A stretch of 64,000 nucleotides of DNA from contig CAJTEM010000002.1 of the NCBI GenBank assembly GCA_910575255.1, positions 62,001 to 126,000 of the forward strand, written 5' to 3'. Positions 1,511 through 39,355 of the stretch are shown one piece after another. Both the position numbers and the translations under genes were made by a program. Numbering within the stretch: position 1 is the stretch's first letter; every line of letters starts with the position of its first letter. The notes below the pieces were generated by a model. The model saw only the letters and a list, made by a program, of their open reading frames with translations, did not search any database and had not been told where the DNA came from. This stretch comes from Lachnospiraceae bacterium (GTDB taxonomy: Bacteria > Bacillota > Clostridia > Lachnospirales > Lachnospiraceae).

Positions 1511-1516
1511 CCGTTT

Positions 1517-4192: not shown

Positions 4193-4220
4193 CGTTCACC
4201 CCAGTCCTCCTTTGGTGTCT

Positions 4221-5339
4221 TTAATCCAGGTAGTCCTTTAGTTTCTTACTCCGGCTGGGATGGCGCAGCTTCCGCAGCGCCTTGGCCTCAATCTGACGGA
4301 TACGTTCTCTCGTCACGTGGAATTCCCTGCCTACCTCCTCCAAGGTTCTTGGCCTTCCGTCATCTAATCCGAAACGCAGACGCAGCACCTTCTGCTCCCG
4401 TTCTGTCAGTGTCTCCAGCGCTTCCATCAGCTGCTCCCGCAAGAGTGTAAAGGTAGCCTGATCCACGGGCACTGCCACCTGGTCATCCTGAATAAAATCT
4501 CCCAGATGGCTGTCCTCCTCCTCCCCGATCGGGGTCTCCAGAGAAACCGGCTCCTGAGAGATCTTGCGGATCTCCTGTACCCTCTCGGGCGGCAGATCCA
4601 TCCTCGCAGCGATCTCCTCCTCCGTGGGTTCCCGTCCCATCTCCTGCACCAGCTGACGCTGTGTCCGGATCAGACGGTTGATGGTCTCCACCATGTGCAC
4701 CGGAATGCGGATGGTTCTGGCCTGATCCGCAATGGAACGGGTGATTGCCTGGCGAATCCACCAGGTCGCATACGTACTGAACTTATATCCCTTCCGATAA
4801 TCAAACTTTTCCACCGCTTTGATCAGTCCCAGATTGCCCTCCTGAATCAGATCGAGAAGCTGCATTCCTCTCCCCACATAACGCTTGGCAATGCTTACCA
4901 CGAGCCGCAGATTAGCCTCTGCAAGCTGTTTTCTGGCTTCACTGTCTCCTAGCTCCATCTTCTTGGCAAGCTCAATCTCCTCCTCTGTAGACAGAAGCGG
5001 GATCTTTCCGATCTCCTTCAGATACATACGGACCGGATCTTCAATGCTGACTCCCTCCGGTACGGACAGATCCATCTCTTCGATATTAATCTCCTCACCG
5101 TCCTGCAGCTCCTCCTCCAGAAACAGATCCGGATCCATATCGTCTTCTTCGCCCACCCGCAACACGTCTACCTTATTCCGGTCAAGAAATTCATAGATGC
5201 GGTCCAGCTTGTCCGGGTCCAGAATCTCCCCTCGGAAAAAATCCAGAATTTCCCGGTTCTCTAACACATTTTTCTTCTTTTTCGCTGTTTCCAGCAACAG
5301 AATCAGCTTTTCCTCCAAAGTATGATTGTGCTCTTCCAT
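4221..5339 (-). CDS. rpoD: RNA polymerase primary sigma factor RpoD (SigA)
   Basis: A 372-residue sigma-70. I start it at the ATG at 5339 ([12 protein letters not shown]), behind AAAGGCGGG and 34 bp after the dnaG stop; a longer frame to 5462 would overlap dnaG and has no family counterpart. Region 1.2 is [17 protein letters not shown], region 2 has the core-binding and -10 helices ([20 protein letters not shown], then [15 protein letters not shown]), and region 4 ends with [15 protein letters not shown] and the -35-binding helix [20 protein letters not shown]. Like other clostridial and Bacillus SigA proteins it lacks the large non-conserved insert of E. coli RpoD. The dnaG-rpoD pair is conserved across Firmicutes. 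Confidence 0.97.
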
Positions 5340-5373
5340 GTCTGCCCGCCTTTCTGCTCCTTTCAAACCGCTC

Positions 5374-7173
5374 TCATTGCCTTTTCGGATCCATTTCCTG
5401 GTCAATGGTAATCGAAAGCTTTTTAAGCGCTGCCTGCTCCCGGATAATCCGCTGTAGCTCATTCAGATTCGTTGCCTGCTGTCTGGCATGATCCAGACTA
5501 TTGTTCTTTACCCGGTATACCATATCCGAAAAAGCCTTCCTCTGTCCGTCATTGTTCAGCGATTCCTCAAGTCTGGCATGAAACAATGCCGCTACTTCTC
5601 TGTATTGTTCTTCATCATTAATAAAATGATTCAAAATCTCGGCCGGATTCAGATTCCCCTGCCGGTATCCCTCAAATACCAGCTGTGCCGTCTGATGATA
5701 CAGAGGCTCCACAAAATCCTCCTCTGTAATGATTCCCTCAATCCTGCCAAATAGCTCCGGACGCTCGATCAGCCAGGTCAGCAGCAGGCGCTGTGCCCGG
5801 CGGTTCCCGTCATCCTTCTCTCCCCCCCGTGTTCCTCTCTGTCCCCGCCTCTCCTGATGCGCTGACTCTGCCCGAAGCGCCGCTCCTGGCACATTGCCCA
5901 GCCGGTTCACCAGACGCCGCAGATTCTCATAGGGTATCATGTGTTCCCGGGCTACCGCCTGAATATAATTATCCCTCTCCAGTTCTTCCCCGAACTCCAG
6001 AAGCTTCTGCGCCGCCGCATGATAGAACCGGGTCTTCTGCTCCGGATCCTCCAGCTGATAATCCCGTTTCATCACCTCAATCTCAAAAAGAAAACTGTTC
6101 TGCGCTTCAGAAATCCGCTCCCGGAAGGCATCTGCTCCCAAATTCCTGATAAACTCATCCGGATCCTTATGCGGACGCATATTGAGTACTTTGGCGGAAA
6201 GCCCTGCCTCCTTCAGAATCGGGATCGCCCGTAATGCCGCTTTTACCCCTGCATTGTCACTGTCATACGTCAGAATTACCAGCCCGGTATAACGCTTCAA
6301 AAGTACAGCATGCTGCGCTGTCAGCGCCGTCCCCAATGAGGCCACCGCATTCAAAAAACCAGCCTGCTGCAAGGCAATCACATCCATATATCCCTCACAG
6401 ACCAGCATATATTTTTCCCGGCTGGTCCGCGCATAATTCAGTCCGTAAAGATTCCTGCTCTTATCAAACACCAGTGTCTCCGGAGAGTTCAGGTATTTCG
6501 GTTCCCCGTCCCCCATGACCCGACCGCCGAAGCCCACGACCCGACTGTTGACATCCATGATCGGAAACATCACCCGGTTCCAGAATTTGTCATACGTTCC
6601 CCGCTCCTCTATCGTCACCAGACCGCTGTCTTTGAGTATTTCATCCGGATATCCCTTGGATCTCAAATACTGATAGAGATCATTGCTCGTCTTATTCGCA
6701 TACCCCAGCCCAAACCGTCGGATCGTCTCCTCTGTCAGCTCTCTCTTTTTAAAATACTCGTATCCATACCTCCCTTGCGGCTGATGAAGCTGGTAATAAA
6801 AATAGTTCGCTGCCGCCTTATTGATCATCAAAAGCTCCTGACGGCGATCCGCCCTCACTTTCTCTTCCTGAGAATATTCCGCCTCAGGCAGCCGGACACC
6901 AGCACGATCCGCCAGCATCTTCAACGCCTCCGGAAAGCTGTAATTCTCATATTCCATTACAAAGGTGATCGCATTCCCGCCTGCCCCGCAGCCAAAGCAG
7001 TAATACATCTGCTTCTGAGGCGACACGGAAAAGGACGGAGACTTTTCATTATGGAACGGGCACAGGCCGAAATAGTTGCTGCCCTTTTTCTGCAGCTTCA
7101 CATACCCCGAAATGATATCCACGATATCGTTTCTCGTTCTCACTTCCTCCACGATCTCTTCCGGATAATACAT
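5374..7173 (-). CDS. dnaG: DNA primase DnaG
   Basis: A 599-residue primase that makes RNA primers at the replication fork. The start at 7173 ([12 protein letters not shown]) has a perfect AAAGGAGG at proper distance; the 21 extra codons further upstream are not family-like. Domains: CHC2 zinc finger at the N-terminus ([15 protein letters not shown], then [10 protein letters not shown]), RNA polymerase domain with TOPRIM motifs ([14 protein letters not shown], then LTYDSDNAG), and a divergent C-terminal helicase-binding domain from about residue 430. Middle gene of dgt-dnaG-rpoD: 50 bp after dgt and 34 bp before rpoD. All expected metal-binding acidic residues are visible. Confidence 0.97.
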
Positions 7174-7223
7174 GAACTCCAGCCTCCTTTCCCGTATCTT
7201 ATCGTATTCCATTCCTTTGTATT

Positions 7224-8231
7224 CTATGCTTTCCATGACTGCGGTACAAACAGCTCTTCGAATTTGCAGATCGCATAGCTGTCGCTCATTCCCGCAATAT
7301 AGTCACAGACCACCCGTTCCTTCTTCTCTCCCCGCTGCTCCATCATCAGGCGATACTCCGTCGGCATCTCGGTGGCATGATCCAGATAATAGTGATACAA
7401 AGATGCGATTAGTTGCTGTGCTTTTTTCTCTTCTGCCTTGGGAACTTCATTCAGATACATATTCTCGAACAGCCAGGCACGCAGTCCCTGCATTGCCTCC
7501 TGCATTCCCGGCGACATCTCAATCCGCGGCTTCTCCCTGCTACTCTCAATAATATCATGAATCATCGTGTTCAGCCGCTCCCGCACACTATGTCCCAAAA
7601 GGGAAGTATAACACTCCGGAATATCCGTCTCCTTAAAGATCTTCCCTCGAATCGCATCGTCAATATCATGATTTATGTAGGCAATCTTATCCGACAGACG
7701 CACAATACAGCCCTCCAGCGTGGACGGACTTCCGCTGGTCCGATGATTCAAAATTCCGTCCCGTACCTCTTTCGTCAGATTCAGCCCCTTTCCGTCCTTC
7801 TCCAGAAGCTCCACCACCCGCACACTCTGCTGATAATGCGCAAAACCGTCCGGGCACAGCGCATCCAGTATCTTCTCTCCGGAGTGTCCGAAAGGAGTAT
7901 GTCCCAGATCATGTCCCAGCGCAATCGCCTCTGTCAGATTCTCATTCATCTGCAGGGCACGCGCAATCGTGCGCGCAATCTGCGACACCTCCAACGTATG
8001 AGTCAGTCTTGTCCGGTAATGATCGCCCTCCGGAGCCAGAAACACCTGCGTCTTATGCTTCAGCCTTCGAAATGCTTTGCAGTGCAGGATCCGATCCCTA
8101 TCCCGCTGATACTCCGGGCGGATATCGCACAATGGTTCCGGGACATCCCTCCCTTTTGTATTCCGGCTCAAAGATGCATATGGACTCAAATACTGGGCTT
8201 CCCAGGCCTCCTGGGCCTCTCTGATCGTCAT
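7224..8231 (-). CDS. dgt: dGTP triphosphohydrolase-like HD-domain protein
   Basis: A 335-residue HD-superfamily enzyme of the Dgt family, which cleaves dNTPs to deoxynucleoside and triphosphate. Visible motifs are the N-terminal DRDRILHCKAFRRLKHKTQVF block with RTRLTHTLEV, the HD pair in IALGHDLGHTPFGHSGE, and the later LSDKIAYINHDIDDA. I use the ATG at 8231 (MTIREAQEAW), preceded by AAGGGGG. The frame extends to 8279, but a -10 box at 8287-8292 would put the transcription start near 8280 and leave no leader for that start. First gene of the dgt-dnaG-rpoD unit. Substrate preference among dNTPs cannot be read from the sequence. Confidence 0.93.
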   Translation of the reverse strand: MTIREAQEAWEAQYLSPYASLSRNTKGRDVPEPLCDIRPEYQRDRDRILHCKAFRRLKHKTQVFLAPEGDHYRTRLTHTLEVSQIARTIARALQMNENLTEAIALGHDLGHTPFGHSGEKILDALCPDGFAHYQQSVRVVELLEKDGKGLNLTKEVRDGILNHRTSGSPSTLEGCIVRLSDKIAYINHDIDDAIRGKIFKETDIPECYTSLLGHSVRERLNTMIHDIIESSREKPRIEMSPGMQEAMQGLRAWLFENMYLNEVPKAEEKKAQQLIASLYHYYLDHATEMPTEYRLMMEQRGEKKERVVCDYIAGMSDSYAICKFEELFVPQSWKA

Positions 8232-8286
8232 CTGCCTGCCCCCTTTTGTACCCTCTGCCCTCAGGGCATATTTTCTCATTTATGTT

Positions 8287-8295
8287 ATTATATCA
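8287..8295 (-). promoter_or_regulatory. Extended -10 promoter for dgt-dnaG-rpoD
   Basis: On the minus strand the sequence reads TGATATAAT, a perfect -10 hexamer with a TGN extension. No good -35 box is seen 17 nt upstream. It would start transcription about 50 nt before the dgt ATG. Confidence 0.6.
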
Positions 8296-8361
8296 TGCTT
8301 CCTGCAATTTTAGTACTGTTTTTTCATACCTGTTTTTACATTCATAACTGCATGGTTACTT

Positions 8362-8423
8362 TTCATGGGCAATGTCAGTTAGGTAAGCGTTTCTGAAAGG
8401 TACGCTCTGGAAAAAGGGTTCCT
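8362..8423 (+). repeat. Fragment of the long inverted-repeat element family
   Basis: Contains CAATGTCAGTTAGGTAAG followed by a TCTGAAAGGTACGC block, which matches almost base for base the reverse complement of the right end of the element at 32038-32328. The match ends in CTCTGGAAAAAGGG, a motif also found beside the 52.3-kb element. Only one arm is present, so this is a truncated copy. It abuts the broken Fic gene and may have replaced that gene's own start region. Confidence 0.6.
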
Positions 8424-8431
8424 CATTCTTC

Positions 8432-8870
8432 ATTGACTGTTGGACACCTGAAATCAAAGAACATGGTGATGGAAAATACCTCTATGTGAGAAAGCGTGTC
8501 GCAGGCAAACAGACCTCTACTTATGTAGGGGCATATACCGAGAAACTGTATCATCTGCTTCTTCGAAACGCCAGAGAAATCCGCCAAATCAGGAAATCAC
8601 TCCGCAGTATTGAAAAACAACTTGCTGCAGTTGGTTATTCTGAAGACGAACTTTCTGCTGATGTTGTCAACAACATCGCATTCGCACGTGCCGGCTTCTG
8701 TTATTTTTGCAAATCATTATCTTATTTCGCATGGTGGAGGTTTCCTGGTAATTCCTGAAAAGGAGGTGCCGGAATACAGACAACTGCTTGCAAAATACTA
8801 TGAAGGTGAAGATATCGCTGTTATTGCGGCTTTTATGAAAGAACGTTGCCGGAAAACAACAGAGCTTTGA
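8432..8870 (+). pseudogene. Fic-family protein remnant with internal deletion
   Basis: Two parts of one Fic-family protein lie in different frames. The 5' part (to about 8693) encodes WTPEIKEHGDGKYLYVRKR, then KQTSTYVGAYTEKLY and SADVVNNIAFARA, the usual N-terminus of clostridial Fic proteins. The 3' part (from about 8695, shifted one frame) encodes ASVIFANHYLISHGGGFLVI and ends MKERCRKTTEL, the usual C-terminus. The middle, roughly 120 residues including the catalytic HxFx(D/E)GN(K/R)R motif, is missing, so no AMP-transferase activity is possible. No start codon with a ribosome binding site is seen upstream. Family assignment is from memory of homologous sequences. Confidence 0.75.
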
Positions 8871-8924
8871 GTGGCAACCCCATTTCAAATCAAATAAAAA
8901 TAACGTGAAAATTTTCAGATTTTA

Positions 8925-8953
8925 TTTACACTAACTGCGCTTTGTGGTAAAAT
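8925..8953 (+). promoter_or_regulatory. Sigma-A promoter for darA
   Basis: TTTACA (8925-8930), 17-nt spacer, TAAAAT (8948-8953), with a TGG just before the -10 box. It lies 33 bp before the darA ATG and after the Fic remnant, so darA has its own transcript. Confidence 0.8.
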
Positions 8954-8986
8954 ATGAGTAAATTTTTGACAAATGGAGGGGTATTT

Positions 8987-9322
8987 ATGAAAATCATTTA
9001 CGCAATAGTCAGCTCCGATGACGGCAATCGGGTAACCGATGTTCTCAATAAAAATCAGTTTAGCGTGACCAAGCTCGCAACCACCGGCGGTTTTCTGAAA
9101 AAAGGGAATGCCACTCTGATGGTCGGCACGGATGAGGATCGGGTAGATACCGCCATCGAACTGATCCGGGAAACCTGCGGAAAGCGGCAGAAAATCACCT
9201 GCGACATCCCTTCTCCCAACATCGGCTCCATCTCCGCCGGCTATGTCATGATGCCCGTGACCGTAGAACTGGGCGGCGCTACCATTTTTGTCACGGACGT
9301 GGAACGCTTCGAGAAATTCTAG
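8987..9322 (+). CDS. darA: Cyclic-di-AMP receptor DarA/PstA (PII-like)
   Basis: A 111-residue PII-like signal protein that binds c-di-AMP as a trimer. MKIIYAIVSSDDGNRVTDVL, then TKLATTGGFLKKGNATLMVG and the C-terminal AGYVMMPVTVELGGATIFV match the PstA/DarA family (DUF970). The TGGFL loop and the VGTDEDRVDTAIELI helix are in their usual places. The start at 8987 has GGAGGGG 6 nt upstream; an 11-codon upstream extension lacks a site. The enzyme that would make its ligand, CdaA, is encoded at 21842-22735, so the window holds both maker and receptor. Monocistronic by position: promoter in front, palindrome and terminator behind. The downstream partner of DarA is not known. Confidence 0.93.
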   Translation: MKIIYAIVSSDDGNRVTDVLNKNQFSVTKLATTGGFLKKGNATLMVGTDEDRVDTAIELIRETCGKRQKITCDIPSPNIGSISAGYVMMPVTVELGGATIFVTDVERFEKF

Positions 9323-9484
9323 TATAACCCGTTTTAAATACCTTTCTGTTTCGGCAAGGATACTTTTCCGAGAGTGCAGAGGGAAAAGCGGAGGCGTAGT
9401 GGGGCTACGTTGAGCATTTTCCCTCTGTGCTATCGGGAAAGCAGACTGGCGAAACGGAAGGTTATTTAAAACGGGTTATACTAG
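9319..9484. repeat. 166-bp near-palindrome overlapping the darA stop codon
   Basis: Left arm 9319-9387 and right arm 9417-9484 are inverted repeats. The outer 22 bp (CTAGTATAACCCGTTTTAAA and on) match perfectly; the inner part has scattered mismatches but ends in a perfect GAGGGAAAA/TTTTCCCTC pair. The 29-nt loop holds its own CGTAG-TGGGG-CTACG hairpin. The TAG stop of darA is part of the left end. It could be a MITE-like insertion or a very large RNA hairpin. Confidence 0.85.
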
Positions 9485-9504
9485 TACAACGAATACAAAG
9501 AAAG

Positions 9505-9554
9505 GAGCACTCTCCTGACAGGTCTTTTGCTTCTGTGGGAGAATGCTTCTTTTT
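9505..9554 (+). terminator. Rho-independent terminator after darA
   Basis: GAGCACTCTCC pairs with GGAGAATGCTT across a 22-nt loop and is followed by CTTCTTTTTA. It lies beyond the 166-bp palindrome. Confidence 0.6.
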
Positions 9555-9676
9555 AGGAACTTTTCACAGGAAATCAATTTTCTAACATATCAATTTTTGC
9601 GGAATAAGTTGAGTGAATAAATTCAAATCGTACGAGGAGCAGGAGCTCTTTTATAGGTTGCAGAACTCAGCCTTGG

Positions 9677-9701
9677 AAAAAGGGGAGAGAGGCCCTCCCC
9701 C
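9677..9701 (-). terminator. Terminator for the flavodiiron gene
   Basis: On the minus strand a GGGGGAG/CTCTCCCC stem is followed directly by TTTTT, 17 bp after the stop codon at 9718. Confidence 0.65.
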
Positions 9702-9717
9702 GCGAAAAGCAACCTTT

Positions 9718-10884
9718 TTATGCTTCGGCCAATTTCTTTGCCAGCTCCTTCATGGCAGCCAGATCCGCATCCTTTACCGCTGACTTCACCGTCACCACAG
9801 GTTCCAGAATCTCGACATTTTTCATGCTCTCCAAAAGACCCCGCATCACCTTTCCGGCCATCGGAGCCCAGCTTCCGTTTTCCAGGATCCCCACTGTGCG
9901 CTTCTGGTAATTCTTCGAACGGATATGCAGCAGAAACTCTTCCATACACGGGAATACGCCACCGTCATAAGTAGCAGCAGCCACCACCATCCGATCATAA
10001 TAAAATGCCTTGCGCACTGCCACGGATATGTCGGTCCGGGACAGATCCAGAACCTCCACGGATTCTTCCCCTTGTTCTCTTAGAATCTCCGCCAGATGCT
10101 TTGCCGCCTTTGCTGTGTTGCCATGAATCGAGGCACAGGCCACCAACACCCCATGCTTCTCTGGCTGGTACGTACTCCAAAGCTGATATTTCTCCAGATA
10201 ATATTCCAGATTCTCTCTCAGAACTGGTCCATGCAAAGGACAGATCATGCGGATATCCAAACCCGCCGCTTTTTTCAGCAGAGTCTGTACCTGTGCTCCG
10301 TATTTGCCTACAATGTTCAGGTAATAACGGGCCGCCTCTTCGGACCACTCCTCTGCGCTGTCCATGGTGCCAAACCGCCCGAAGCCGTCTGCGGAAAACA
10401 GAATCTTTTCCGTCTGCTCATAAGTTACCATCACCTCCGGCCAATGTACCATCGGTGCCATGAAAAACTGCAGGATATGCGTTCCGAGGCTGAGGGTGTC
10501 TCCCTCTTTAACCTCCACGGTCCTGCCCTCCAGATCCAGATCAAAGAACTGCCGGATCATGCCAAAGGTCTTGGCATTGCCTACCAGCTTTGCCTCCGGA
10601 TGGATCCTTACAAACTGTTCGATATTCGCCGCGTGATCCGGCTCCATATGGGAAATCACCAGATAGTCCGCTGGTTTTCCGGCCAGGCTCTGATCCAGGT
10701 TCGCAAACCATTGTTCGGATCCCCGGACATCCACGGTATCCAATACGGCATTTTTCTCATCCAGTATCAAGTAGGAATTATAGGTCACTCCGTTCGGAAC
10801 CGGATACTGACTTTCAAACAAGTCCAAGGTCATATCACTGGCTCCGATATAAAAAACAGATTCCGAAATATATGTGTCGCTCAT
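9718..10884 (-). CDS. Flavodiiron protein (A-type flavoprotein, FprA-like)
   Basis: A 388-residue cytoplasmic oxygen (or NO) reductase. The N-terminal beta-lactamase-like domain keeps the diiron ligands: SHMEPDHAAN (H-x-E-x-D-H), MVHWPEVMVTY, SADGFGRFG and CPLHGPVLR. The C-terminal flavodoxin domain (from about 250) has the FMN loop CASIHGNTAKAAKHL and AAATYDGGVFPCMEEFL. There is no fused rubredoxin domain, so electrons must come from a separate carrier. Two adjacent ATGs exist; the second (10884) sits at better distance from GAGGAG. It has its own promoter (10934-10962) and terminator. Expected role is oxygen protection in a strict anaerobe. Confidence 0.95.
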   Translation of the reverse strand: MSDTYISESVFYIGASDMTLDLFESQYPVPNGVTYNSYLILDEKNAVLDTVDVRGSEQWFANLDQSLAGKPADYLVISHMEPDHAANIEQFVRIHPEAKLVGNAKTFGMIRQFFDLDLEGRTVEVKEGDTLSLGTHILQFFMAPMVHWPEVMVTYEQTEKILFSADGFGRFGTMDSAEEWSEEAARYYLNIVGKYGAQVQTLLKKAAGLDIRMICPLHGPVLRENLEYYLEKYQLWSTYQPEKHGVLVACASIHGNTAKAAKHLAEILREQGEESVEVLDLSRTDISVAVRKAFYYDRMVVAAATYDGGVFPCMEEFLLHIRSKNYQKRTVGILENGSWAPMAGKVMRGLLESMKNVEILEPVVTVKSAVKDADLAAMKELAKKLAEA

Positions 10885-26155: not shown

Positions 26156-26653
26156 CTACTGAACTATTTTTCTTGGCGCTGTCTGTCGAAAACACTGAAT
26201 CATCTTGTCATCCGGTTCAAAAACAATCCACATGATCTCCGATCCGGTCCGGACTACTGCCGTATAGGTCTTTGCGCCAGGCAGCTGAGAAGAAAAATCC
26301 ATGGTTTTGGAATTTGGGGACTGATAATCATTGAGCACATGAGACCCCGACGGCGCAATCACCTGAATATCGTCCATTTTTCCTTCCCAGGCTTTTTTCC
26401 GTTTTGATTTTCCCAGAATCTTGTCTATAGACAAGGTTTTTTCTACATAGAGATATTCGAACTCCACGCGGGAATTGCGGTATAAAATATAGCAGGCAAA
26501 TCCTGACACAAACATCAGAATCAATCCGATGATATTGGTGGTCAATGCCAGCAGGACACAGATAGCCGTGACAACTCCCATTATAATGTTGACAATGTTG
26601 GAATACATCGGGACACGGCGCCTTACCAGGCATTCGGCATATGATTCATTCAT
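26156..26653 (-). CDS. Small membrane protein, DUF6106-like
   Basis: A 165-residue protein beginning MNESYAECLVRRR at 26653, with AAGGAG 10 nt upstream. Two adjacent hydrophobic segments (about 20-62) form a membrane hairpin; the rest is a soluble domain with EYLYVEKTLSIDKILGKSKRKK and FEPDDKMIQCFRQ. The start and layout resemble the Lachnospiraceae family DUF6106, but this is from memory and weak. Its ribosome binding site lies in CTCCTTCTCGCT, a string that recurs in the tandem repeat just upstream, so repeat expansion may have touched its leader. Function unknown. Confidence 0.65.
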   Translation of the reverse strand: MNESYAECLVRRRVPMYSNIVNIIMGVVTAICVLLALTTNIIGLILMFVSGFACYILYRNSRVEFEYLYVEKTLSIDKILGKSKRKKAWEGKMDDIQVIAPSGSHVLNDYQSPNSKTMDFSSQLPGAKTYTAVVRTGSEIMWIVFEPDDKMIQCFRQTAPRKIVQ

Positions 26654-26681
26654 TGGTGTTTTGCTCCTTCTCGCTATCGGC

Positions 26682-27004
26682 CAGGCAGTCCGCGCTGCTT
26701 CGCATCGCGGCAACGTTAGCTCGATTCCGCTTCGCTCCTTCTCGCTATCGTTGCTCGTCAGATCAGGACTCTGTCTCATCTGGAAACAAACAGTCGGTGG
26801 GGCTGACTGTTTGTTTCCGGATGAGCCGGAATCCTGACCTGGCCCAGGCAGTCCGCGCTGCTTCGCATCGCGGCAACGTTAGCTCGATTCCGCTTCGCTC
26901 CTTCTCGCTATCGTTGCTCGTCAGATCAGGACTCTGTCTCATCTGGAAACAAACAGTCGGTAGGGCTGACTGTTTGTTTCCGGATGAGCCGGAATCCTGA
27001 CCTG
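26682..27004. repeat. 163-bp tandem duplication with long hairpins
   Basis: Two units, 26682-26844 and from 26845, differ at only one visible base (GGTGGGGCT versus GGTAGGGCT), so the duplication is recent. Each unit has a GC-rich CGCTTCGCTCCTTCTCGC tract and a 33-bp stem hairpin with a GACTGTTTGTTTCC core arm (first copy about 26764-26838). It fills the space between the groEL stop and the next gene. No T-run follows, so it is not a classical terminator. Confidence 0.92.
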
Positions 27005-29961: not shown

Positions 29962-31659
29962 TTACTGCTTCGGCAGCTTAAACGAACTCTTCAGCGAAAC
30001 GATCCGGTTAAACACCGGCGCTCCTTCCCTGCTGTCCTTGCAATCCGCACAGAAGAATCCATTGCGCACAAACTGAAAGCTGTCATATGCCTTTGCCTCT
30101 GCCAGCGCCGGTTCCACATAGCAGTTCTTCAGCACAGTCAGCGAATTGGGATTCAGATTCAGGGTCCCGTCTTCATTCAGCTTCCCCTTTTCCTCATCGA
30201 CAATATTCTCATACAGCCGGCATTCCACGGTCTTTGCCGTATCTGCCAGCACCCAGTGAATCGTTCCTTTCACCTTTCTTTCACAAAAGCCCGAGCCGCT
30301 CTTCGTCGCGGGATCATAGGTGGCATGAATCACCGTCACCCTGCCTGTCTCATCTTTCTCATATCCGGTACATGTCACAAAATACGCACTCATCAGGCGG
30401 ACCTCATTGCCGGGAAACAGCCGGAAGTATTTCTTCGGCGGCTCCTCCATAAAGTCCTCCCTCTCAATATATAATTCTCTGCCAAACGGCACCATGCGCG
30501 AACCAAGCTCAGGATTCTCCAGATTATTCGGCACCTCAAGAAGCTCGGTCTCTCCCTCCGGGTAGTTGTCGATCACCAGCTTCACCGGATCCAGAATTGC
30601 CATCATCCGCGGCTTCTTCAACTTCAGATCCTCACGGATGCAATATTCCAGCATGGCATAATCCACCGAACTGTTGGCTTTGGCAACCCCTACCAGTTCC
30701 ACGAACATACGGATGGATTCCGGCGTATAGCCCCGGCGGCGCAGGGCAGCAATCGATACCAGACGCGGATCATCCCAGCCGTCTACAATCCCATCCTCCA
30801 CCAGCTTCTTAATATATCGCTTGCCGGTGACCACATTGGTCAGATACAGCTTGGCAAATTCTATCTGCCGCGGCGGATTCTCAAACTCGCACTCCCGCAC
30901 CACCCAGTCATATAGGGGGCGGTGATCTTCGAACTCCAACGTACAGATCGAGTGTGTAATATGCTCAATCGCATCCTCGATCGGATGGGCAAAATCATAC
31001 ATCGGATAGATGCACCACTGATCACCGGTATTGTGATGGCTCATCCTGGCCACACGATAAATAACCGGGTCTCTCATATTGATATTCGGACTTGCCATAT
31101 CGATCCGGGCCCGCAAAACCTTCTCTCCATCCTGAAATCTGCCGGCACGCATCTGTTCAAAAAGCTCCAGATTCTCTTCTATGGAGCGGTTTCTGAAAGG
31201 GCTTTCCTTCCCCGGGGTCTTAAAATCTCCGCGATATTCACGGATTTCTTCCGCACTCAGATCGCAGACGAATGCCTTGCCCTTTTTGATCAGCAGCACG
31301 GCACATTCATACATCTGTTCAAAATAATCGGAGGCAAAAAACAGGCGGTCCTCATAATCAGCCCCCAGCCAGTGGATGTCATCCAGAATCGACTGTACGA
31401 ATTCCGTCTTTTCCTTTGTGGGGTTGGTATCATCGAAACGCATGTTGAATTTGCCGTTGTATTTTTGAGCCAGCCCATAGTTGAGCAAAATGGATTTGGC
31501 ATGTCCGATATGAAGATAACCGTTCGGCTCTGGGGGAAAGCGGGTCTGAACATGATCATACACTCCCTCCGCCAGGTCCTTCTCAATCTCCTGCTCGATA
31601 AAATTTCTCGAAACCACTTCCTTTTCCGCTGTTTCTGGTATTATCTTTTCTTTTTCCAT
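29962..31659 (-). CDS. glnS: Glutaminyl-tRNA synthetase
   Basis: A 565-residue class I synthetase. Signatures: [18 protein letters not shown] (HIGH), [34 protein letters not shown], the KMSKS-equivalent [15 protein letters not shown] and [20 protein letters not shown], then the anticodon-binding beta-barrels with [11 protein letters not shown] and [16 protein letters not shown] direct GlnRS in a clostridium usually reflects an ancient transfer from proteobacteria or eukaryotes; whether GatCAB is also present cannot be told here. Start at 31659 with AAAGGAAAGGACC upstream. Its 5' flank is filled with repeats. Confidence 0.96.
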
Positions 31660-31880: not shown

Positions 31881-31945
31881 GGAAAAAGGCAGGGAAGAAT
31901 CCGCTTTTGTGCAAGCACAACGCGGATTCTTCCCTGCCTTTTTCC
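31881..31945. repeat. 65-bp near-perfect palindrome upstream of glnS
   Basis: Arms 31881-31904 and 31922-31945 are perfect 24-bp inverted repeats (outer ends GGAAAAAGGCAGG and CCTGCCTTTTTCC). The 17-nt loop contains TTGTGC-AA-GCACAA, so the pairing continues to the centre. It could stop transcripts reading either way. Confidence 0.9.
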
Positions 31946-32037: not shown

Positions 32038-32328
32038 TGTTATTGTTCACAATCAATGTCAGTTAGTTAAGGAATCGCGAAGCACAGCCAAGGAAACGGG
32101 GAGAGCAGCCATCAGAAATGGTTTGCGAATTTTGACTTTGCAGAGATTTAGAGGTCCTTAAAGTTTGTGAATTTTCGTTTCGTTTTTAGCAAAAATCGGA
32201 AATTTTAGGAATTCTTGATCTCGAAACCGGAAAAAGCAGCAAACCATTTCTGATGGCTGCTCTCCCCGTTTCCTTGGCGTACCTTTCAGAGACGCTTAAC
32301 TAACTGACATTGGGTGTGAACAGTAACA
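32038..32328. repeat. Long inverted-repeat element, copy 1
   Basis: Left arm 32038-32126 and right arm 32239-32328 (about 90 bp each). Ends match as TGTTAYTGTTCACA plus CAATGTCAGTTAGTTAAG; a 20-nt stretch differs between arms; then 39 bp from CCAAGGAAACGGGGAGAG to GGTTTGC match perfectly. The 112-nt core is itself an imperfect inverted repeat (GAGAT...TCCT with AGGA...ATCTC). No reading frame for a transposase. It sits between the reductase-GntR fusion and glnS. Related to 52324-52565. Confidence 0.92.
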
Positions 32329-32360: not shown

Positions 32361-33947
32361 TCAGACAGATGCCCCCAACAGGGATTTTGTGATAATCTCC
32401 GCATCCATGATATGCTTTTCCAGCTCCTGGAAGCATTGGGCGCCGTCGGACAGGCAAAGCTCATACAGACGTTTGTGTTTATCAAAAAAAGTATCTGCAT
32501 ATTCCTGTGCGTAGCCTGCAGAGGTGTTGAAGTTCATCAGGGTGTAAACCAGTTGTGCGTTGCTTTCCCAGGCATTGACCAGAAACATATTGCCTGAGGT
32601 ACGAACCCATGCTCTGTGGAACTGGACATCCAGGTCGTACCAGTCTGTATCGGCGTTTTCCTCCAGGCAGGCCTTCTCGATCTTTGCCAGCACTTCTGCA
32701 ATCAGCGGAAATATCGAATTCTTCTGACTCAGCATCCGCTTTAAGGCCTCCTGCTCCAGCAGCCAGCGGAAATGATAAAGCTCGATTACCTGCTTCTCGG
32801 TAAATTCCACTGCCTCTCTCCGGCCATTCTCATGCGTAAGAATCAATCCCTCATTCGAAAGTATCTGCAATGCCGTCCTCACAGAACTCCTGCTGGCAGA
32901 AAAACGTTTCGCCAGCTGATTTTCCGCCATCTTGTCTCCTTTTTTAATCTTCTGATGCAAAATATCCATCCGCAGCTGATTGGCAATCTTATCCGGAGTG
33001 GCCGGCGAACCCCGATTGACCAGATTGCGTTCGAGAATCATCTCATGAATCTTCTCATTGAGTTCCCTGTTGACCGGCACAGGGATGCCCGCCTCTGCTG
33101 CCATTGCTGTCACGGCATCCCCCAATATCTCAGTCTCCAGCGGTCTTCCCTGCCAGTAATCATGCAGCATGGAAGATCTGCCATGCGGTGTCAGCCGCTG
33201 CAAATCCTCCTCCCAGGCTTTGATATTCTCCTCCCCTAAGGCTACCCCATAATACCTGGCCAGCAGAATCACCTCACGCTGCGCACTCCGCATCTTCTCC
33301 ATCGCCTCAGCGCTTTCCCGCAGCTTCCCATAGTTCATCTGATAAACCGTGCTCGTCTGATTGCAGCCGACATTAATCAAAAATTTCTCCCAAAGCTTAT
33401 ACTCCATATCTGCCGGTACCTGATACGCAATCCCACTCTGCTCCAGAAACCCCGCCACCCGTTTCACTCTGGGAGACCACGTCTCGTTTTTCTTTTCTCC
33501 GAAGTAAAGACAGCCGCACCGGTTGCAGGTAACCTGGCTCTCCTTTCTGTTGGTATCTGCTCCGGTAACTGTCGCATAAAGCACATGCTCACTGCCGAAG
33601 GCTTCCGTCAACCGTCTCTCGCTATCCAGTCCGTTCAGCAAAGAAAGCAAAATCGTATTCTCATCGATCCATACTGCCAGATTCTGCACCGCCTCCTGCA
33701 GATGATATGACTTTACTGCCAGAATCACCAGATCCACCGGCCCATTTCTGCCCTCTTTCCATGAAACATAATCAATATTCAGCCTCTCTCCGTTAACGAA
33801 AATCGGATCCTTTTTATATTTTTGCAGATTTCTGACAATCCCATACAATCTGACCTCCCGGTTATTCTTTGCAATCTGTCTCGCATATCCGGCCCCCATA
33901 GCACCCAGCCCGACAATCGCCACACTCCGGATTCCATCCTTTTCCAT
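32361..33947 (-). CDS. Fusion of ketopantoate-reductase-like enzyme and GntR/FCD regulator
   Basis: A single uninterrupted 528-residue frame. Residues 9-310 form an ApbA/PanE-type reductase: Rossmann motif VAIVGLGAMGAG, ILAVKSYH (K79), LLNGLD (N105), and the C-terminal domain with the catalytic-type Lys in YKLWEKFLINVGCNQ (K188). Residues about 318-382 form a GntR winged helix (MAENQLAKRFSASRSSVRTAL). About 385-519 is an FCD ligand domain with metal-type residues D440, H444, H491 and H512. Start set at 33947 (MEKDGIRSVAIVG) behind AGAGAGG; other in-frame starts lie up to 8 codons earlier. It follows the TRAP/kinase/aldolase genes with its own promoter and probably controls them. A separate reductase role in the same pathway is likely too. 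Confidence 0.9.
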   Translation of the reverse strand: MEKDGIRSVAIVGLGAMGAGYARQIAKNNREVRLYGIVRNLQKYKKDPIFVNGERLNIDYVSWKEGRNGPVDLVILAVKSYHLQEAVQNLAVWIDENTILLSLLNGLDSERRLTEAFGSEHVLYATVTGADTNRKESQVTCNRCGCLYFGEKKNETWSPRVKRVAGFLEQSGIAYQVPADMEYKLWEKFLINVGCNQTSTVYQMNYGKLRESAEAMEKMRSAQREVILLARYYGVALGEENIKAWEEDLQRLTPHGRSSMLHDYWQGRPLETEILGDAVTAMAAEAGIPVPVNRELNEKIHEMILERNLVNRGSPATPDKIANQLRMDILHQKIKKGDKMAENQLAKRFSASRSSVRTALQILSNEGLILTHENGRREAVEFTEKQVIELYHFRWLLEQEALKRMLSQKNSIFPLIAEVLAKIEKACLEENADTDWYDLDVQFHRAWVRTSGNMFLVNAWESNAQLVYTLMNFNTSAGYAQEYADTFFDKHKRLYELCLSDGAQCFQELEKHIMDAEIITKSLLGASV

Positions 33948-34001: not shown

Positions 34002-34030
34002 ATTTTACGAGGAAAAACGGGATTCCGCAA
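34002..34030 (-). promoter_or_regulatory. Promoter of the reductase-GntR fusion gene
   Basis: Minus strand: TTGCGG (34025-34030), 17-nt spacer, TAAAAT (34002-34007), 55 bp before the start. About 85 bp further upstream AACCGACATTG resembles a half of the dctP palindrome (CGACATT). Confidence 0.6.
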
Positions 34031-34208: not shown

Positions 34209-34958
34209 TCATTGCACCTGCTCCCGCATCGCAAGTATCCCCTTTTTCAGTAACCCCATCTCGCTGTCACAGCTAAACATCGTCATTCCCATCCTCCGGC
34301 ATTTCCGGATCAGATCCGCCCTGGAGCTGATGATCCCGCACGGCAGCCCACATGCTTTCGCCGCATCCGTCACCTGCACCATACTCTCCTCCAGACCCGG
34401 AACCGCGAAATCACCGATCCCTCCCAGATCACATGCCAGATCATTGGGACCGATCCAGACCCCGTCCAGGCCGGAAATACTCAGAATTTCTCTGATTTGC
34501 TTCACCCCTCTTTTCGTCTCAATCTGGACAAAAAGCATGACACGCTCATTGGCCTGCCTCGTATATTCTGTCAGCACGCCGGGATTGTAATTGCTGTGGG
34601 GGCGCATGGTGGAAATCCCCCTTTTTCCCTCAGGCGCATATCTCCCGAACCGAACCAGCTGTTCCGCCTGTTTTACACTCTCCGTCATGGGTACCAGAAG
34701 CCCGTCCGCTCCCGCATCCAGATATTTCTGAATACATTCCCGATCAGCCGACGGAATTCGTACGATCATCGGAAAACGGATTCCGTTAGCAACCGCCGCG
34801 AGCGCAGATACCTGCGAATAATCGAAACTTCCATGCTCACAATCGACAATTACATAATCAAGACCAGCCGCCTGCATGAGGCGCAGCAGATTCGGTGCTG
34901 CCACCTCTGATAAAAACATGCCTGTCAACTCTTCACCTGCCCGAATCCGCTGTCTCAT
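34209..34958 (-). CDS. HpcH/HpaI-type aldolase (2-oxo-3-deoxy acid aldolase)
   Basis: A 249-residue class II aldolase of the RhmA/GarL/HpaI family, which splits 2-oxo-3-deoxy sugar acids (or 4-hydroxy-2-oxo acids) to pyruvate plus an aldehyde using a divalent metal. Motifs: VIVDCEHGSFDY with the catalytic base His, RIPSADRECIQKYLDAGADGLLVPM, MLFVQIETKRGVKQI (metal Glu) and DGVWIGPNDLACDLG (metal Asp). The start codon lies 26 nt inside the end of the kinase gene, with GGAGGAAAGG in front. With the TRAP transporter and kinase it forms a catabolic set; the exact substrate is not readable. Confidence 0.9.
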   Translation of the reverse strand: MRQRIRAGEELTGMFLSEVAAPNLLRLMQAAGLDYVIVDCEHGSFDYSQVSALAAVANGIRFPMIVRIPSADRECIQKYLDAGADGLLVPMTESVKQAEQLVRFGRYAPEGKRGISTMRPHSNYNPGVLTEYTRQANERVMLFVQIETKRGVKQIREILSISGLDGVWIGPNDLACDLGGIGDFAVPGLEESMVQVTDAAKACGLPCGIISSRADLIRKCRRMGMTMFSCDSEMGLLKKGILAMREQVQ

Positions 34959-36318
34959 TTCCTTTCCTCCCTGGATTTTCCTTTTTGTCTATGCAGTGCA
35001 GAATCAGCTTCTGCATGCCGGCGAACACCTCATCCTCCTGTGCACAGACAATCCGCTCCGCGCCGAACTGCCGGCAGATTGCTTCCTGCAGCAGGGGATT
35101 TTTCAACAAGGCGCCGCCTGTGAAATAGATCCGTCCTGAGAATGCCTTCGGACCCCGAAGTACCTGAGCGTACTTGTGGTACGCCCTTCCAAAGTCCGCC
35201 GCTGTCGCTCCGATCACCGTTTGAAGTGTAAAATTCTCATGAGTGATATGGCGGATGCTCCCATCTGCCAGCCGATCCGGCAGTTCATAAAATCCACAGT
35301 CCACCTCCAGACCTCTGGTTTCTCCCCAGCCCTCCTGAAGATAGATCTGCTGCCAGACCTCCTCGCGCTTCAGAGAAACATGAAAGATCTTTTCGCCCAC
35401 ATCCCGGATATAATCAATCTGTACGTCAAAATTCCTCCCGCCTGGCATACAGGATATGACATTACAGAAATTTCCGTCATAAAAAGGCCGTATTTCATAA
35501 TTCCCAGGTACAAATTCATCCGACAGATAAATCAGCTGTCCGCTGGTGCCGATATTCATCACCAGATCCCCTGACCTGGCACTCGTCCCGTAAACGCTGG
35601 TCTGCACATCTCCCACATCCGGAAATACCTGAACACAAATATTCCCTTCCTCATAAGTACCGCAGCATTCCAGTTCCTTCGTGATCCTGGGAAGCCGGAT
35701 AAAATCCAGACCGATCTCTTCCAGCATATCTCTCCTCCAGGTATTGGTCAAAATATCGGCAAATCCCAGCGGCGCCGCATTGGTAATATGGCACACCCCA
35801 TTTCCTGTCAATTTCCGGATAATGTAAGATCCCAGCGTATCAATCCTGGTACTTTGCTTTCTGGACAGCTTCTCCTCCTCAAACAGAGCATACAGATTGC
35901 AAAAGGCCATCGCAGGTTTGATATAAACGCCATTCGCAAGCATATCCGCTCTGGAAAATCTGGCTCTGAGTTCCTCCAGATAGCTGATTCCTGTATCTGC
36001 TCTTGTTTTTAAGCAACGGGTATCCTGCCATGAGATATACATATCCTCTGCCAGCTGCGGATGTGATATCACGCATCCGTGCTGCTGAGTGGAAAGCAGA
36101 ATTCCGGCCGTATCCGAAGCAATGCCGCAGAACTCCCGGATAATTCTCTGCACAATTTCTACAAATTCCCGGGCATGGTTCTCATAATACAAACGGCCCC
36201 TGTCCGATCTTTTCTCAGGTGTAGGATATTTTTTTCTGGCAATCTGCCGGTTTTCTTCCGCATCAAAGAGTCCGGCCTTTATAAAGGTACTGCCCAAATC
36301 TACTGTTATGTATTTCAT
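34933..36318 (-). CDS. FGGY-family carbohydrate kinase
   Basis: A 461-residue sugar kinase. N-terminal phosphate loop YITVDLGSTFIKAGLFD, STQQHGCVI, WQDTR with the catalytic-type Asp region, the second ATP site NIGTSGQLIYL and the FTGGALLKNPLLQEAI adenosine motif are all present. It resembles the sedoheptulokinase-like branch of FGGY more than xylulo- or glycerol kinase, but this is an impression. Start 9 bp after the dctM stop, with GAGGG 6 nt upstream. It likely phosphorylates the imported compound or its reduced product before aldol cleavage. Confidence 0.88.
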   Translation of the reverse strand: MKYITVDLGSTFIKAGLFDAEENRQIARKKYPTPEKRSDRGRLYYENHAREFVEIVQRIIREFCGIASDTAGILLSTQQHGCVISHPQLAEDMYISWQDTRCLKTRADTGISYLEELRARFSRADMLANGVYIKPAMAFCNLYALFEEEKLSRKQSTRIDTLGSYIIRKLTGNGVCHITNAAPLGFADILTNTWRRDMLEEIGLDFIRLPRITKELECCGTYEEGNICVQVFPDVGDVQTSVYGTSARSGDLVMNIGTSGQLIYLSDEFVPGNYEIRPFYDGNFCNVISCMPGGRNFDVQIDYIRDVGEKIFHVSLKREEVWQQIYLQEGWGETRGLEVDCGFYELPDRLADGSIRHITHENFTLQTVIGATAADFGRAYHKYAQVLRGPKAFSGRIYFTGGALLKNPLLQEAICRQFGAERIVCAQEDEVFAGMQKLILHCIDKKENPGRKGNETADSGR

Positions 36319-36327
36319 TTCTGCCCT

Positions 36328-37623
36328 CTATCGCATCAACATGTCGGGAATCCCGGTTACAATTCCCGGAAATGCCCACAAAACTACCACCTCTGCCATC
36401 AGAACCGCCAAAAACGGCCAAAGCTTTTTGCATACCTGTTCCATAGATAAATGTTCAATGCTGCAGGTTGTCATAAGCACCACCCCGACCGGAGGGGTAA
36501 TATTCCCGATCATGGCGATTACAATGATACAGATCCCGGCATGAACCGGATCAAAGCCAGCAGCATTTAAAAGCGGCAGAACCATGGGCACAAATACCAT
36601 GATGTTGACATTGGGATCGCTTAAGCATCCCAGAACCAAAAATAATATCGTAATACACAAAGCCACGAGAAATCTGCTGTCTCCGGCAAATGCAGTCAGA
36701 AGCGCATACAGCTTCATCTGCAGATTCTCCGCCGTCATGACAAAGCTGAAGCACTTGGCCGCCGGAATCACTAAAAGTACGGACCCACTGGTGACAAATA
36801 CGCTCTTCAGGCTTTCGATAAAATCCGAAGGCTTCATCGTCCGATAAACCAAAATCCCCAAAATAAGCGCGTATAATACTGCCAGTGCCGCCGCCTCCGT
36901 GGTTGTCACAATCCCCAGATAGATTCCGCCCAGCAGAATCACCGGAGTCAGAAGCGGCAGAATACAGGACAAAAAGGAACCCAAAAGCTGCGCCAGATAA
37001 AACCGCCACCCCTGCCACTGCAGTCCGGACGAATGATTCCGGACGGAATACAGCCATACATAAGCCATCAGAATCAGCCCCATGATAAAACCGGGCAGAA
37101 TTCCTCCAAAAAGCAGACGTCCCACAGACACATTGGCAACCATAGCGTAGACGACTGCCGGAATACTCGGCGGAATAATCGGTCCTACCGTGGAGGACGC
37201 TACCGTCGTTGCGGCACTGAAGCCTTCGTCAAATCCTTCATCCACCATCGCCTGATAGGCCAGATGGCCGATTCCTCCGGCATCAGCCACCGCACTTCCC
37301 GACATTCCGGCAAAAATAATGCTGGTCGTGATATTCACGTGCCCCATTCCTCCGGGAATATATCCCACCAGATCCCGGCAAAATTTAAAAATCCGGTCTG
37401 CCACTGAGGTCCGGTTCATCACCTCGGCGGTCAGAATAAACAAAGGGATCGCCACCAGGGCAAAATTATTCAGGCCCGTGAACATCTTCGTTCCCATAAT
37501 GGCAAGCCCCATCCCACTGCTCAGGGCATAGAGAAAGGAGGACACAATCATGGCAGCGGCAATCGGCATTCCCAACAGAAAAAACATCAGAAAGCTGACT
37601 AAAAACAAAGCCATATCAGACAT
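36328..37623 (-). CDS. dctM: TRAP transporter large permease DctM
   Basis: A 431-residue protein with about twelve membrane segments, the transport subunit of a tripartite ATP-independent periplasmic transporter. Family marks: FFLLGMPIAAAMIV near the N-terminus, FAGMSGSAVADAGGIGHL, SSTVGPIIPPSIPAVVYAM, and SDPNVNIMVFVPMVLPLL. These systems use an ion gradient to import organic or sugar acids. One base separates its start from the dctQ stop. Confidence 0.95.
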   Translation of the reverse strand: MSDMALFLVSFLMFFLLGMPIAAAMIVSSFLYALSSGMGLAIMGTKMFTGLNNFALVAIPLFILTAEVMNRTSVADRIFKFCRDLVGYIPGGMGHVNITTSIIFAGMSGSAVADAGGIGHLAYQAMVDEGFDEGFSAATTVASSTVGPIIPPSIPAVVYAMVANVSVGRLLFGGILPGFIMGLILMAYVWLYSVRNHSSGLQWQGWRFYLAQLLGSFLSCILPLLTPVILLGGIYLGIVTTTEAAALAVLYALILGILVYRTMKPSDFIESLKSVFVTSGSVLLVIPAAKCFSFVMTAENLQMKLYALLTAFAGDSRFLVALCITILFLVLGCLSDPNVNIMVFVPMVLPLLNAAGFDPVHAGICIIVIAMIGNITPPVGVVLMTTCSIEHLSMEQVCKKLWPFLAVLMAEVVVLWAFPGIVTGIPDMLMR

Positions 37624-37624
37624 A

Positions 37625-38137
37625 TCAGATTCCCCTCCTCTTATTATCCCTGTTCTTCATCCATTCCCTGGTGTCAGAAATCAGATTGCATAGAATATGA
37701 AAGCTCATCAGTCCAAAACTGACCGGCAGAATCGCATACACATATTTCAGAGGAATCCGCATCACATTGGATATGGCAAGCTGTCCTAACAATGTGATCA
37801 ATTCCGGAAGATACCGAACAAAAAATACAATCATAATCCCATTCATCACCTGCCGGATAAAAAAACGAACCGTACTCGGAAACATTCCGGTCAAAGCTGT
37901 CACATTCAGATGCTTGTCCTCACCTGCCGTATAAGCAGCTGCCAGAAATCCCATCCACACAAATAGAAACTGATTCAGCTCGTCCGACCAGTTCAGTCCG
38001 CTTTGCAGACAATAGCGCAATGCCGCATTACTGATCATCACAATAAACAGCACCCCCAGACAGATACAGCCCAACGCCTTCTCTGCCCGCTTCAGCCGGG
38101 TATTCAGCCAAACCATCCCTCTAAAGGCCTGTTCCAT
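37625..38137 (-). CDS. dctQ: TRAP transporter small permease DctQ
   Basis: A 170-residue protein with four membrane helices (about 21-42, 53-72, 90-112, 130-155) and the DctQ signature SGLNWSDELNQFLFVWMGFLAA. GAAGGAGG stands before the ATG. It pairs with DctM; both are needed to accept solute from the binding protein. Confidence 0.95.
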   Translation of the reverse strand: MEQAFRGMVWLNTRLKRAEKALGCICLGVLFIVMISNAALRYCLQSGLNWSDELNQFLFVWMGFLAAAYTAGEDKHLNVTALTGMFPSTVRFFIRQVMNGIMIVFFVRYLPELITLLGQLAISNVMRIPLKYVYAILPVSFGLMSFHILCNLISDTREWMKNRDNKRRGI

Positions 38138-38165: not shown

Positions 38166-39254
38166 TTATTTCATTTCCTGAATCTGACTGTACCAATCCT
38201 GCCAGGCCGGATAGTCAGCCACCACCTGCCTGGCATTTTCCTGAAACGGAGCAGTGTCAATATCCTCCAGCAAGGTCATGCCATTCATTACACACTCTTC
38301 TATCAGCGTCGCTTCATTCTCCACAACCATCTGATCCACATAGTCTCCCATATTGAGGAATACCTCCTCAAAAATCGCCCGATCTTCATCCGACAAAGAA
38401 TCCCACAGCTTTTCATTGATAATCGTCGAGGAACAGGCCAGCATATGGCGGGTCATAATCAGGTATTTCTGCACCTCATAAAATTTCATGGTCACAATCT
38501 GGGTCACCGGATTCTCCTGGCAGTCCGCCACCCCTGTCTGCAGAGACATATACACATCTTCAATAGGAATCGAGGTAATCGCCACACGAAATACATCTTT
38601 CAGGGTAGAATAAGGTTCAAAATTCACACATCGAAGCGTCAGGCCGTTAAAATCCTCCAGGGTGCGGATCTCCTTATTCGCCGTCAGATTGCGGAAGCCA
38701 AAATTATACATATTCAGCTGACGGACTCCGCCCACTGCCTTGCCGATCTCCTCTCTCATCTCACTGCAGAGTTCGCTTTCCTTAAATGTCCGCCAGTGCT
38801 CATAACTGTCAAAACAATAAGGCGCAAACAGTACTCCCCCTGACTCAAGCCAGTCCGATGCACTGTCCAGACAGGCGATATCAAGCGTTCCCATCTGACA
38901 GGCCGTAATACTGTCTGCATAGTTGCCATACGTTCCATTCGCAAATATCGTCAGCTGGTAACGTCCCCCTGTCTTCTCATAAAGCTCCCCGGATGCCTGC
39001 AGATATGCCTGATGAACCGGATGCGTCTCCGCAAAAACATGAGACACCTTGAGATTTACCGTCTCGCTGTCGGCCTCCTCCACTGCCTTTGTCGTCTCCG
39101 CTTCTTCCTCTCCAGAAACATCCTCACTTTCCTTCTTGCCTTCACTCGCGGTATTCTCTGCCCTCTTTGTCTGTGAAACTGCCTCCCCTCCCTTACATCC
39201 TGCAAGCCCCACTGCCATTGCCAGAATCAATCCCATAGCTGCTAGCCTTTTCAT
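38166..39254 (-). CDS. dctP: TRAP transporter solute-binding lipoprotein DctP
   Basis: A 362-residue lipoprotein. The signal peptide MKRLAAMGLILAMAVGLAGC ends in a lipobox (LAGC), followed by a Glu/Ser/Thr-rich spacer (about 25-60) that tethers it outside the cytoplasmic membrane. The DctP domain begins VNLKVSHVFAETHPVHQAYLQ and contains the carboxylate-binding Arg region NGLTLRCVNFEPY, then QTGVADCQENPV. Start at the ATG 39254, 8 nt after AAGGAG; a TTG two codons earlier is unlikely. First gene of the operon, behind a promoter with a palindromic operator. Confidence 0.95.
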   Translation of the reverse strand: MKRLAAMGLILAMAVGLAGCKGGEAVSQTKRAENTASEGKKESEDVSGEEEAETTKAVEEADSETVNLKVSHVFAETHPVHQAYLQASGELYEKTGGRYQLTIFANGTYGNYADSITACQMGTLDIACLDSASDWLESGGVLFAPYCFDSYEHWRTFKESELCSEMREEIGKAVGGVRQLNMYNFGFRNLTANKEIRTLEDFNGLTLRCVNFEPYSTLKDVFRVAITSIPIEDVYMSLQTGVADCQENPVTQIVTMKFYEVQKYLIMTRHMLACSSTIINEKLWDSLSDEDRAIFEEVFLNMGDYVDQMVVENEATLIEECVMNGMTLLEDIDTAPFQENARQVVADYPAWQDWYSQIQEMK

Positions 39255-39301: not shown

Positions 39302-39355
39302 AATGTAGCACATATCAATTCAAATGTCAACTTATATTTATAAATGTCGACATTT
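39302..39355 (-). promoter_or_regulatory. dctP promoter and probable GntR operator
   Basis: Minus-strand promoter: TTGACA (39325-39330), 17-nt spacer, TACATT (39302-39307). Upstream at 39342-39355 is a perfect 14-bp palindrome AAATGTCGACATTT. A related GTTGACATTTGAA overlaps the -35 box, giving a direct repeat of the right half-site. Likely target of the fused GntR protein. Confidence 0.7.

Follow-up and report, generated by a model that had tools for sequence, protein, structure and literature searches.

Described relatives and the fused gene

Trigger enzymes, such as PutA and BirA, are enzymes that also bind the DNA of their own pathway. Reductases of the ApbA/PanE family, including D-mandelate dehydrogenase (PDB 5x20, 3wfi), are standalone proteins of about 300 residues in their solved members and in those aligned here. 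Regulators of the FadR/FCD family, for example DgoR, CitO, LldR and TM0439, combine a winged helix with an FCD domain, carry an Arg and a D/H metal set, and have no enzyme domain. In the MocR regulators, such as PdxR, a GntR DNA-binding domain and an enzyme fold share one chain, which makes them known cases of such a fusion, according to the available parts of two papers (PMC5320631, PMC12915131).

The gene described here lies in a stretch of 64,000 nucleotides from a Lachnospiraceae bacterium (the window, meaning the whole stretch analysed) and joins an ApbA/PanE reductase to a GntR/FCD regulator. With the ApbA/PanE family it has in common the fold, the Rossmann loop and seven catalytic or substrate residues, but it adds a regulator of about 220 residues and belongs to a genome without a PanB match. 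The winged helix, the FCD domain, the Arg and the metal set are those of the FadR/FCD family, as is a candidate site with a GT..AC core at an organic-acid operon; in contrast to DgoR, CitO, LldR and TM0439, a reductase precedes the winged helix. Compared with MocR/PdxR, as far as the two papers describe them in the parts available, the enzyme fold is a different one and N-terminal, and a separate FCD domain is retained. The likeness to PutA and BirA would be that of an enzyme binding the DNA of its own pathway. Here the domains are unrelated. The residue sets look intact in both modules, and catalysis, DNA binding and any coupling of the two are putative.

The open frame runs from 33971 to 32361 on the reverse strand without an internal stop. 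Its likely start, the ATG at 33947, is aligned with the ATG of a related fusion gene (L068, see below), and the product has 528 residues. As the first-pass annotation had it, the frame holds a complete reductase and a complete GntR/FCD regulator, and all four Pfam domains exceeded their cut-offs: ApbA at residues 9-152 (84.1 bits, cut-off 22.2), ApbA_C at 180-302 (79.8, cut-off 22.7), GntR at 319-372 (48, cut-off 27) and FCD at 389-508 (42.9, cut-off 24.3). The NCBIfam model TIGR00745 scored 192.5 bits (cut-off 141.35). Standalone reductases match the protein as far as about residues 292-314 and the GntR model matches from 319 onwards, in agreement with a join near residue 312, where that annotation had placed it. 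The residues it had named are present as well, namely the loop GLGAMG, the WEK motif with K188, and D440, H444, H491 and H512. Among the 16 FCD matches in the host genome, only the open frame of the fusion (547 residues) is longer than 266 residues. No Pfam match to an aminotransferase class I/II-like domain was found in the fusion protein at E 0.01, and the NCBIfam MocR model PdxR matched residues 318-373 only, which is the helix part. Coordinates are collected in Table 1.

Table 1. Features of the fusion gene and of the adjoining cluster, in window coordinates.
Feature	Coordinates	Strand	Remarks
Fusion gene	32361..33947	-	reductase 1-305, linker 306-318, GntR winged helix 319-388, FCD domain 389-528
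Reductase half (ApbA/PanE)	33033..33947	-	residues 1-305; equivalents K79, N105, K188, N192, N196, S259, E271
Regulator half	32361..33032	-	residues 306-528 and stop; R394, D440, H444, H491, H512
Proposed own promoter of fusion gene, TTGCGG-N17-TAAAAT	34002..34030	-	from conservation
HpcH/HpaI aldolase	34209..34958	-	
FGGY-family kinase	34933..36318	-	FGGY_N match only; best PDB E 4e-5
dctM, TRAP large permease	36328..37623	-	
dctQ, TRAP small permease	37625..38137	-	
dctP, TRAP solute-binding protein	38166..39254	-	listed ORF to 39260 (TTG); ATG 39254 conserved
dctP promoter, TTGACA-N17-TACATT	39302..39330	-	extended -10 (TGnTACATT)
Operator candidate AAATGTCGACATTT, perfect 14-bp palindrome	39342..39355	.	

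Residue sets of the two halves

The reductase half was aligned with E. coli PanE and 11 standalone reductases (L104-L113 and L070, of which L111 is from the host genome). The residues listed for it in Table 1 correspond, in the same order, to PanE K72, N98, K176, N180, N184, S244 and E256, and they are identical in the three known fusions and in 11 of the 11 standalone reductases. N184 of PanE is a catalytic or substrate residue, and R31 is its NADPH phosphate Arg. The roles of K176, N98, E256, K72, S244 and N180 are stated in the available part of PMC3478992. Three other PanE residues, R31, N194 and N241, are replaced in the window fusion by Y35, Y206 and G256, and therefore neither cofactor nor substrate is fixed by the alignment. 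Most of the aligned relatives have the Tyr and the Gly in common with it. The R31 column holds Tyr35 in the window and L068 and Phe in the third fusion (L069), with R39 nearby, and varies among the standalone relatives.

A structure model of the fusion, built with five sequences, reached a mean pLDDT of 70.5, with a well predicted reductase half and a weak FCD part (block pLDDT 31-64). Searched with Foldseek, the reductase half of the model matched the Pseudomonas aeruginosa ketopantoate reductase 8iwq_B with an E-value of 4.4e-20 and a TM-score of 0.85 (by target), and D-mandelate dehydrogenase with an E-value of 4.1e-18. No match to PanB (PF02548) was found in any of the three fusion genomes, an absence that is weaker for one of them, G161, which is 86% complete; 11 of 14 control genomes were positive. 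A role of the reductase in vitamin B5 (pantothenate) synthesis thus appears unlikely. It would be natural for this half to handle a 2-oxo or 2-hydroxy acid of the adjacent pathway.

In the regulator half, R394, D440, H444 and H491 align with DgoR R102, D146, H150 and H195 and are kept in all three fusions. These DgoR residues are implicated in D-galactonate or metal binding in the available part of PMC7674646. H512 follows H491 by 21 residues, and a third His at a 22-residue spacing is described for TM0439, LldR and Ps5454 in the available parts of PMC4746285 and PMC7674646. Given its DgoR-equivalent residues, the FCD half could plausibly sense an acid alone. Most other ligand contacts of DgoR are missing, as Q173, R179, W181, D184, T191, S221 and R224 are absent from the fusion by alignment. 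The ligand would therefore differ from that of DgoR, and it is probably another acid.

Conservation, distribution and surroundings

Full-length fusions occur in two other genomes. One (L068) was retrieved by a genus search from the Lachnospiraceae MAG G161 and is 86% identical to the window protein; the other (L069) came from a species-collection scan and belongs to [Clostridium] citroniae WAL-17108 (G173), with 69% identity. The join is thus common to three assemblies that are 68-86% identical. Between the window and L068, synonymous change is close to saturation (pS 0.61-0.74 by domain), and dN/dS is 0.002-0.060 across the four domain stretches. The GntR part (319-388) is identical at 70 of 70 residues to L068, with a pS of 0.74, and at 63 of 70 to L069. 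For the 16 residues of the join (303-318) the counts are 16 of 16 (pS 0.67) and 12 of 16. Judged by these substitution patterns, the join is under purifying selection.

The presence of the fusion in two other genomes, together with this selection, excludes a frameshift, a misassembly or a chance join. An error of this kind at about 33000, merging two genes, had been raised by the first-pass annotation. Nothing was found in its favour, and its probability is negligible. The same annotation had allowed that homologues might exist solely as separate genes, which the fused homologues in L068 and L069 answer.

The full-length fusion was found in one of 150 and one of 397 family genomes, one of 398 phylum genomes and one of 291 class genomes, each time the host's own; at most nine, three, three and five first-look candidates per genome were scored in these four surveys, and a divergent fusion could escape them. 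Two of 24 genus genomes (the host's own and G161) and one of 17 genomes from the genus of G173 (G173 itself) carried it, and the genome sets of all these surveys overlap. The species-collection scan, with six 8-residue patterns, matched 37 stretches, from which four loci were confirmed, two of them fused. No match over 80% of the query was found in plasmids (348 records with partial matches) or in phages (12 records), and 31 pattern matches in viral contigs included no relative of the fusion. The idea of a widespread fusion was rejected, as the surveys found three genomes in all within their scoring limits. A second candidate reductase fusion, a frame of 721 residues in G118, was discarded because it is an ORF of 378 residues when counted from its start codon. 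Among the papers listed by our literature search, none was on an ApbA/PanE-GntR-FCD protein; one study, in its available part, names a reductase and a GntR gene separately, with no fusion. The fusion looks like a rare, new addition to the enzyme-regulator fusions already known.

Whether the fusion always lies beside TRAP, FGGY kinase and HpcH/HpaI aldolase genes had been posed as a check, and this holds for the three known cases: dctP, dctQ, dctM, the kinase and the aldolase adjoin it in all of them. The fusion gene is the last of the cluster in the window and L068, and the first in L069. The flanking ORFs (at least 120 residues, 4.3-10 kb on each side of the cluster) gave no cross-matches among the three loci at E 1e-20. 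Therefore, the cluster sits in three unrelated places and yet is kept together. Identities to the window (L068/L069) are 95%/90% for DctM, 85%/74% for DctP, 84%/70% for DctQ, 82%/65% for the aldolase, 80%/62% for the kinase, 94%/78% for the regulator half and 80%/62% for the reductase half. In rate of evolution the reductase half keeps pace with the kinase and the aldolase, as would be expected of a working enzyme, and the regulator half is better kept.

An unfused ancestor of the cluster was not found in the family-genome searches. Relatives of the kinase at E 1e-60 are present in three of 299 family genomes, the host included. In the other two (L102, L103) the kinase is paired with an aldolase, and no reductase or GntR-FCD match at E 1e-4 was found within 14-15 kb. 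The pair in L102 lies in a gene cluster (1034-10397) with a racemase-like gene, which may serve inositol or sugar-acid breakdown. DctM at E 1e-110 was found in one of 397 family genomes, the host's own. In ten stretches with standalone reductases (L104-L113, one from the host genome) the other six cluster parts were absent alongside. An unfused GntR-FCD gene of the same genus, 31% identical to that of the fusion, lies beside TRAP genes (L121, 613-4454) and may be a model for the regulator before fusion. Homology gave no substrate for the cluster, since the kinase appears distant from solved members, with no close solved relative (Table 1); the solute-binding protein matches many TRAP proteins with mixed ligands.

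Downstream of the fusion, on the same strand, the window holds a glutaminyl-tRNA synthetase gene (29962-31659). In an unrelated genome (L106, 7908-10652) a standalone reductase, 36% identical to that of the fusion, is followed immediately by a glutaminyl-tRNA synthetase that is 60% identical to that of the window; the flanks of L068 and L069 showed no such gene. The adjacency could reflect either an ancestral neighbourhood or coincidence. A MITE-like element of about 290 bp (32038-32328) lies directly downstream of the fusion gene; its outer inverted repeats measure 34 nt (91%), its inner arms measure 79 nt (80%), and its core has no other copy in the window. Near it is an inverted repeat at 31881-31945 with 27-nt arms (96%) and an 11-nt loop. 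Just downstream of groEL (26529-27000), two frames have a run of about 50 residues in common, which points to a direct DNA repeat.

Probable regulation of the operon and possible coupling of the halves

The palindrome AAATGTCGACATTT is identical in front of dctP in all three genomes; it stands on the upstream side of the -35, at a distance of 11 bp in the window and of 12 bp in L068 and L069. It is the sole exact copy in each of the three genomes (the host, G161 and G173). With up to one mismatch it is the only site in the host and G161 and one of two in G173, and the reversed control pattern gave one, one and four matches per strand. By these counts alone the palindrome is unremarkable; its position and exact conservation are what is remarkable. 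With up to two mismatches, the window holds two matches against 0.17 expected. Its core GT-CG-AC fits the GntR consensus yGTM-KACr. A degenerate copy lies over the -35, offset by 20-21 bp (11, 10 and 10 of 14 positions in the window, L068 and L069), and may be due to chance, as L068 has another 10/14 match elsewhere. The three dctP promoters agree in TTGACA, in the 17-bp spacer and in the extended -10. Such a conserved, near-consensus promoter suggests one that needs repression.

Position, conservation and the fit to the GntR consensus make the palindrome a candidate site for the fusion regulator. The earlier proposal had the protein sensing through its own catalytic domain and controlling the TRAP, kinase and aldolase genes. 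Control of the dctP operon via the palindrome appears likely, given a conserved site before dctP that is the sole exact copy per genome, and adjacency in three of three genomes; the sensing is weighed below.

The region upstream of the fusion gene has two blocks, CTTGC and TCGTAA, that are invariant in the three genomes, in the arrangement TTGCnn-N17-TAARAT and without the palindrome. A promoter pattern scan picked up all three dctP promoters, each with 10 of 12 positions matching; the L068 promoter was the one fusion promoter it picked up, and there the first hexamer was shifted (TGCACA). The own promoter in the window is therefore proposed on conservation. Promoter-like patterns numbered 12, 18 and 17 in the window, L068 and L069, with no clear excess over shuffle means of 9.1, 17.9 and 10.5. 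In L069 the fusion gene lies upstream of the palindrome-controlled promoter, and thus the enzyme would not be inducible from the dctP promoter there. The gap between aldolase and fusion in the window and L068 had no terminator-like site among those listed for the coding strand, so that read-through from the operon is possible.

In the reading we favour, the fusion is a bifunctional reductase-repressor: it controls the operon, its FCD domain senses the pathway acid, and its reductase processes that same acid. The chances of this reading being right or wrong seem to us evenly balanced. The scheme builds on what can be read in the DNA, that is, the fusion, its conservation, the residue sets, the operon linkage, the palindrome and the separate conserved elements upstream. 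The system would take up and break down a small acid of the hydroxy or oxo type, probably a sugar acid. The fusion protein may be expressed steadily from its own promoter, and the GntR halves of a dimer would occupy AAATGTCGACATTT just upstream of the dctP promoter, presumably repressing dctP-dctQ-dctM-kinase-aldolase. Repression would be lifted when the incoming acid, or a form of it made by the reductase half, binds the FCD domain, which may hold it via R394 and a metal on D440, H444, H491 and H512, much as in DgoR. The reductase half would interconvert the 2-oxo and 2-hydroxy forms with NAD(P)H in one direction or the other. A single polypeptide might in this way both process and report the pathway acid.

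That the two halves instead work independently, as a pathway reductase and an FCD repressor of the usual kinds that were joined to be co-expressed and do not influence each other, strikes us as somewhat unlikely. Both halves are complete and each resembles its standalone relatives, and the unfused GntR-FCD gene beside TRAP genes in the same genus (L064/L121) fits such a history. The perfect match of the join between the window and L068 argues the other way, yet the match to L069 is looser, and a catabolic enzyme outside the palindrome-controlled operon in L069 would be odd. That gene order, with an enzyme not induced there, and a proposed own promoter without the palindrome agree better with a reductase domain acting as a sensor or gate, in which DNA binding is set by bound NAD(P)H, by bound substrate or by conversion of the inducer beside the FCD pocket, by analogy with the aminotransferase-like domain of MocR regulators. 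The fusion has also been kept despite the changed gene order, and a precedent exists in the MocR regulators, where the GntR helix likewise shares a chain with an enzyme fold (PMC5320631, in its available part). However, the FCD half is a plausible sensor by itself, the window and L068 allow for read-through, and none of the seven parts is less conserved than the reductase half, which falls well below the regulator half; sensing or gating by the reductase is thus, in our view, distinctly unlikely. A narrower form, in which the catalytic cycle sets the attached repressor by making or destroying the inducer near the FCD pocket, is rather unlikely. If true, the operon would follow reaction flux or redox state, and not simply metabolite concentration.

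The sign of regulation could also be the opposite, with the site upstream of the -35 as an activator site and the regulator activating dctP, like the FCD protein CitO with citrate. The position is a common one for activators, and CitO, whose ligand site is linked to a metal, is an activator of the FCD family (PMC4746285, in its available part). Activation nevertheless seems fairly improbable, as the core promoter is near consensus and a degenerate copy of the site lies over the -35, though that copy is near chance. Production of the regulator alone from an internal start codon is very improbable. M303 and M340 are present in all three fusions, and M340 has an SD-like stretch 4-5 bases upstream (five of six positions in the window and L068, four of six in L069), but its product would lose part of the winged helix, and before the winged helix no start with an SD-like stretch is kept in all three.

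With the bifunctional reductase-repressor as the preferred reading, the pairing of an ApbA/PanE reductase with an FCD regulator is added to the enzyme-regulator fusions, together with a 14-bp candidate operator. Whether catalysis gates transcription can be tested directly, with a single protein, a single promoter fragment and a single uptake operon, and the fusion would gain in interest if catalysis gates DNA binding. The locus also suggests an as yet uncharacterised pathway of acid uptake in Lachnospiraceae-like Clostridia.
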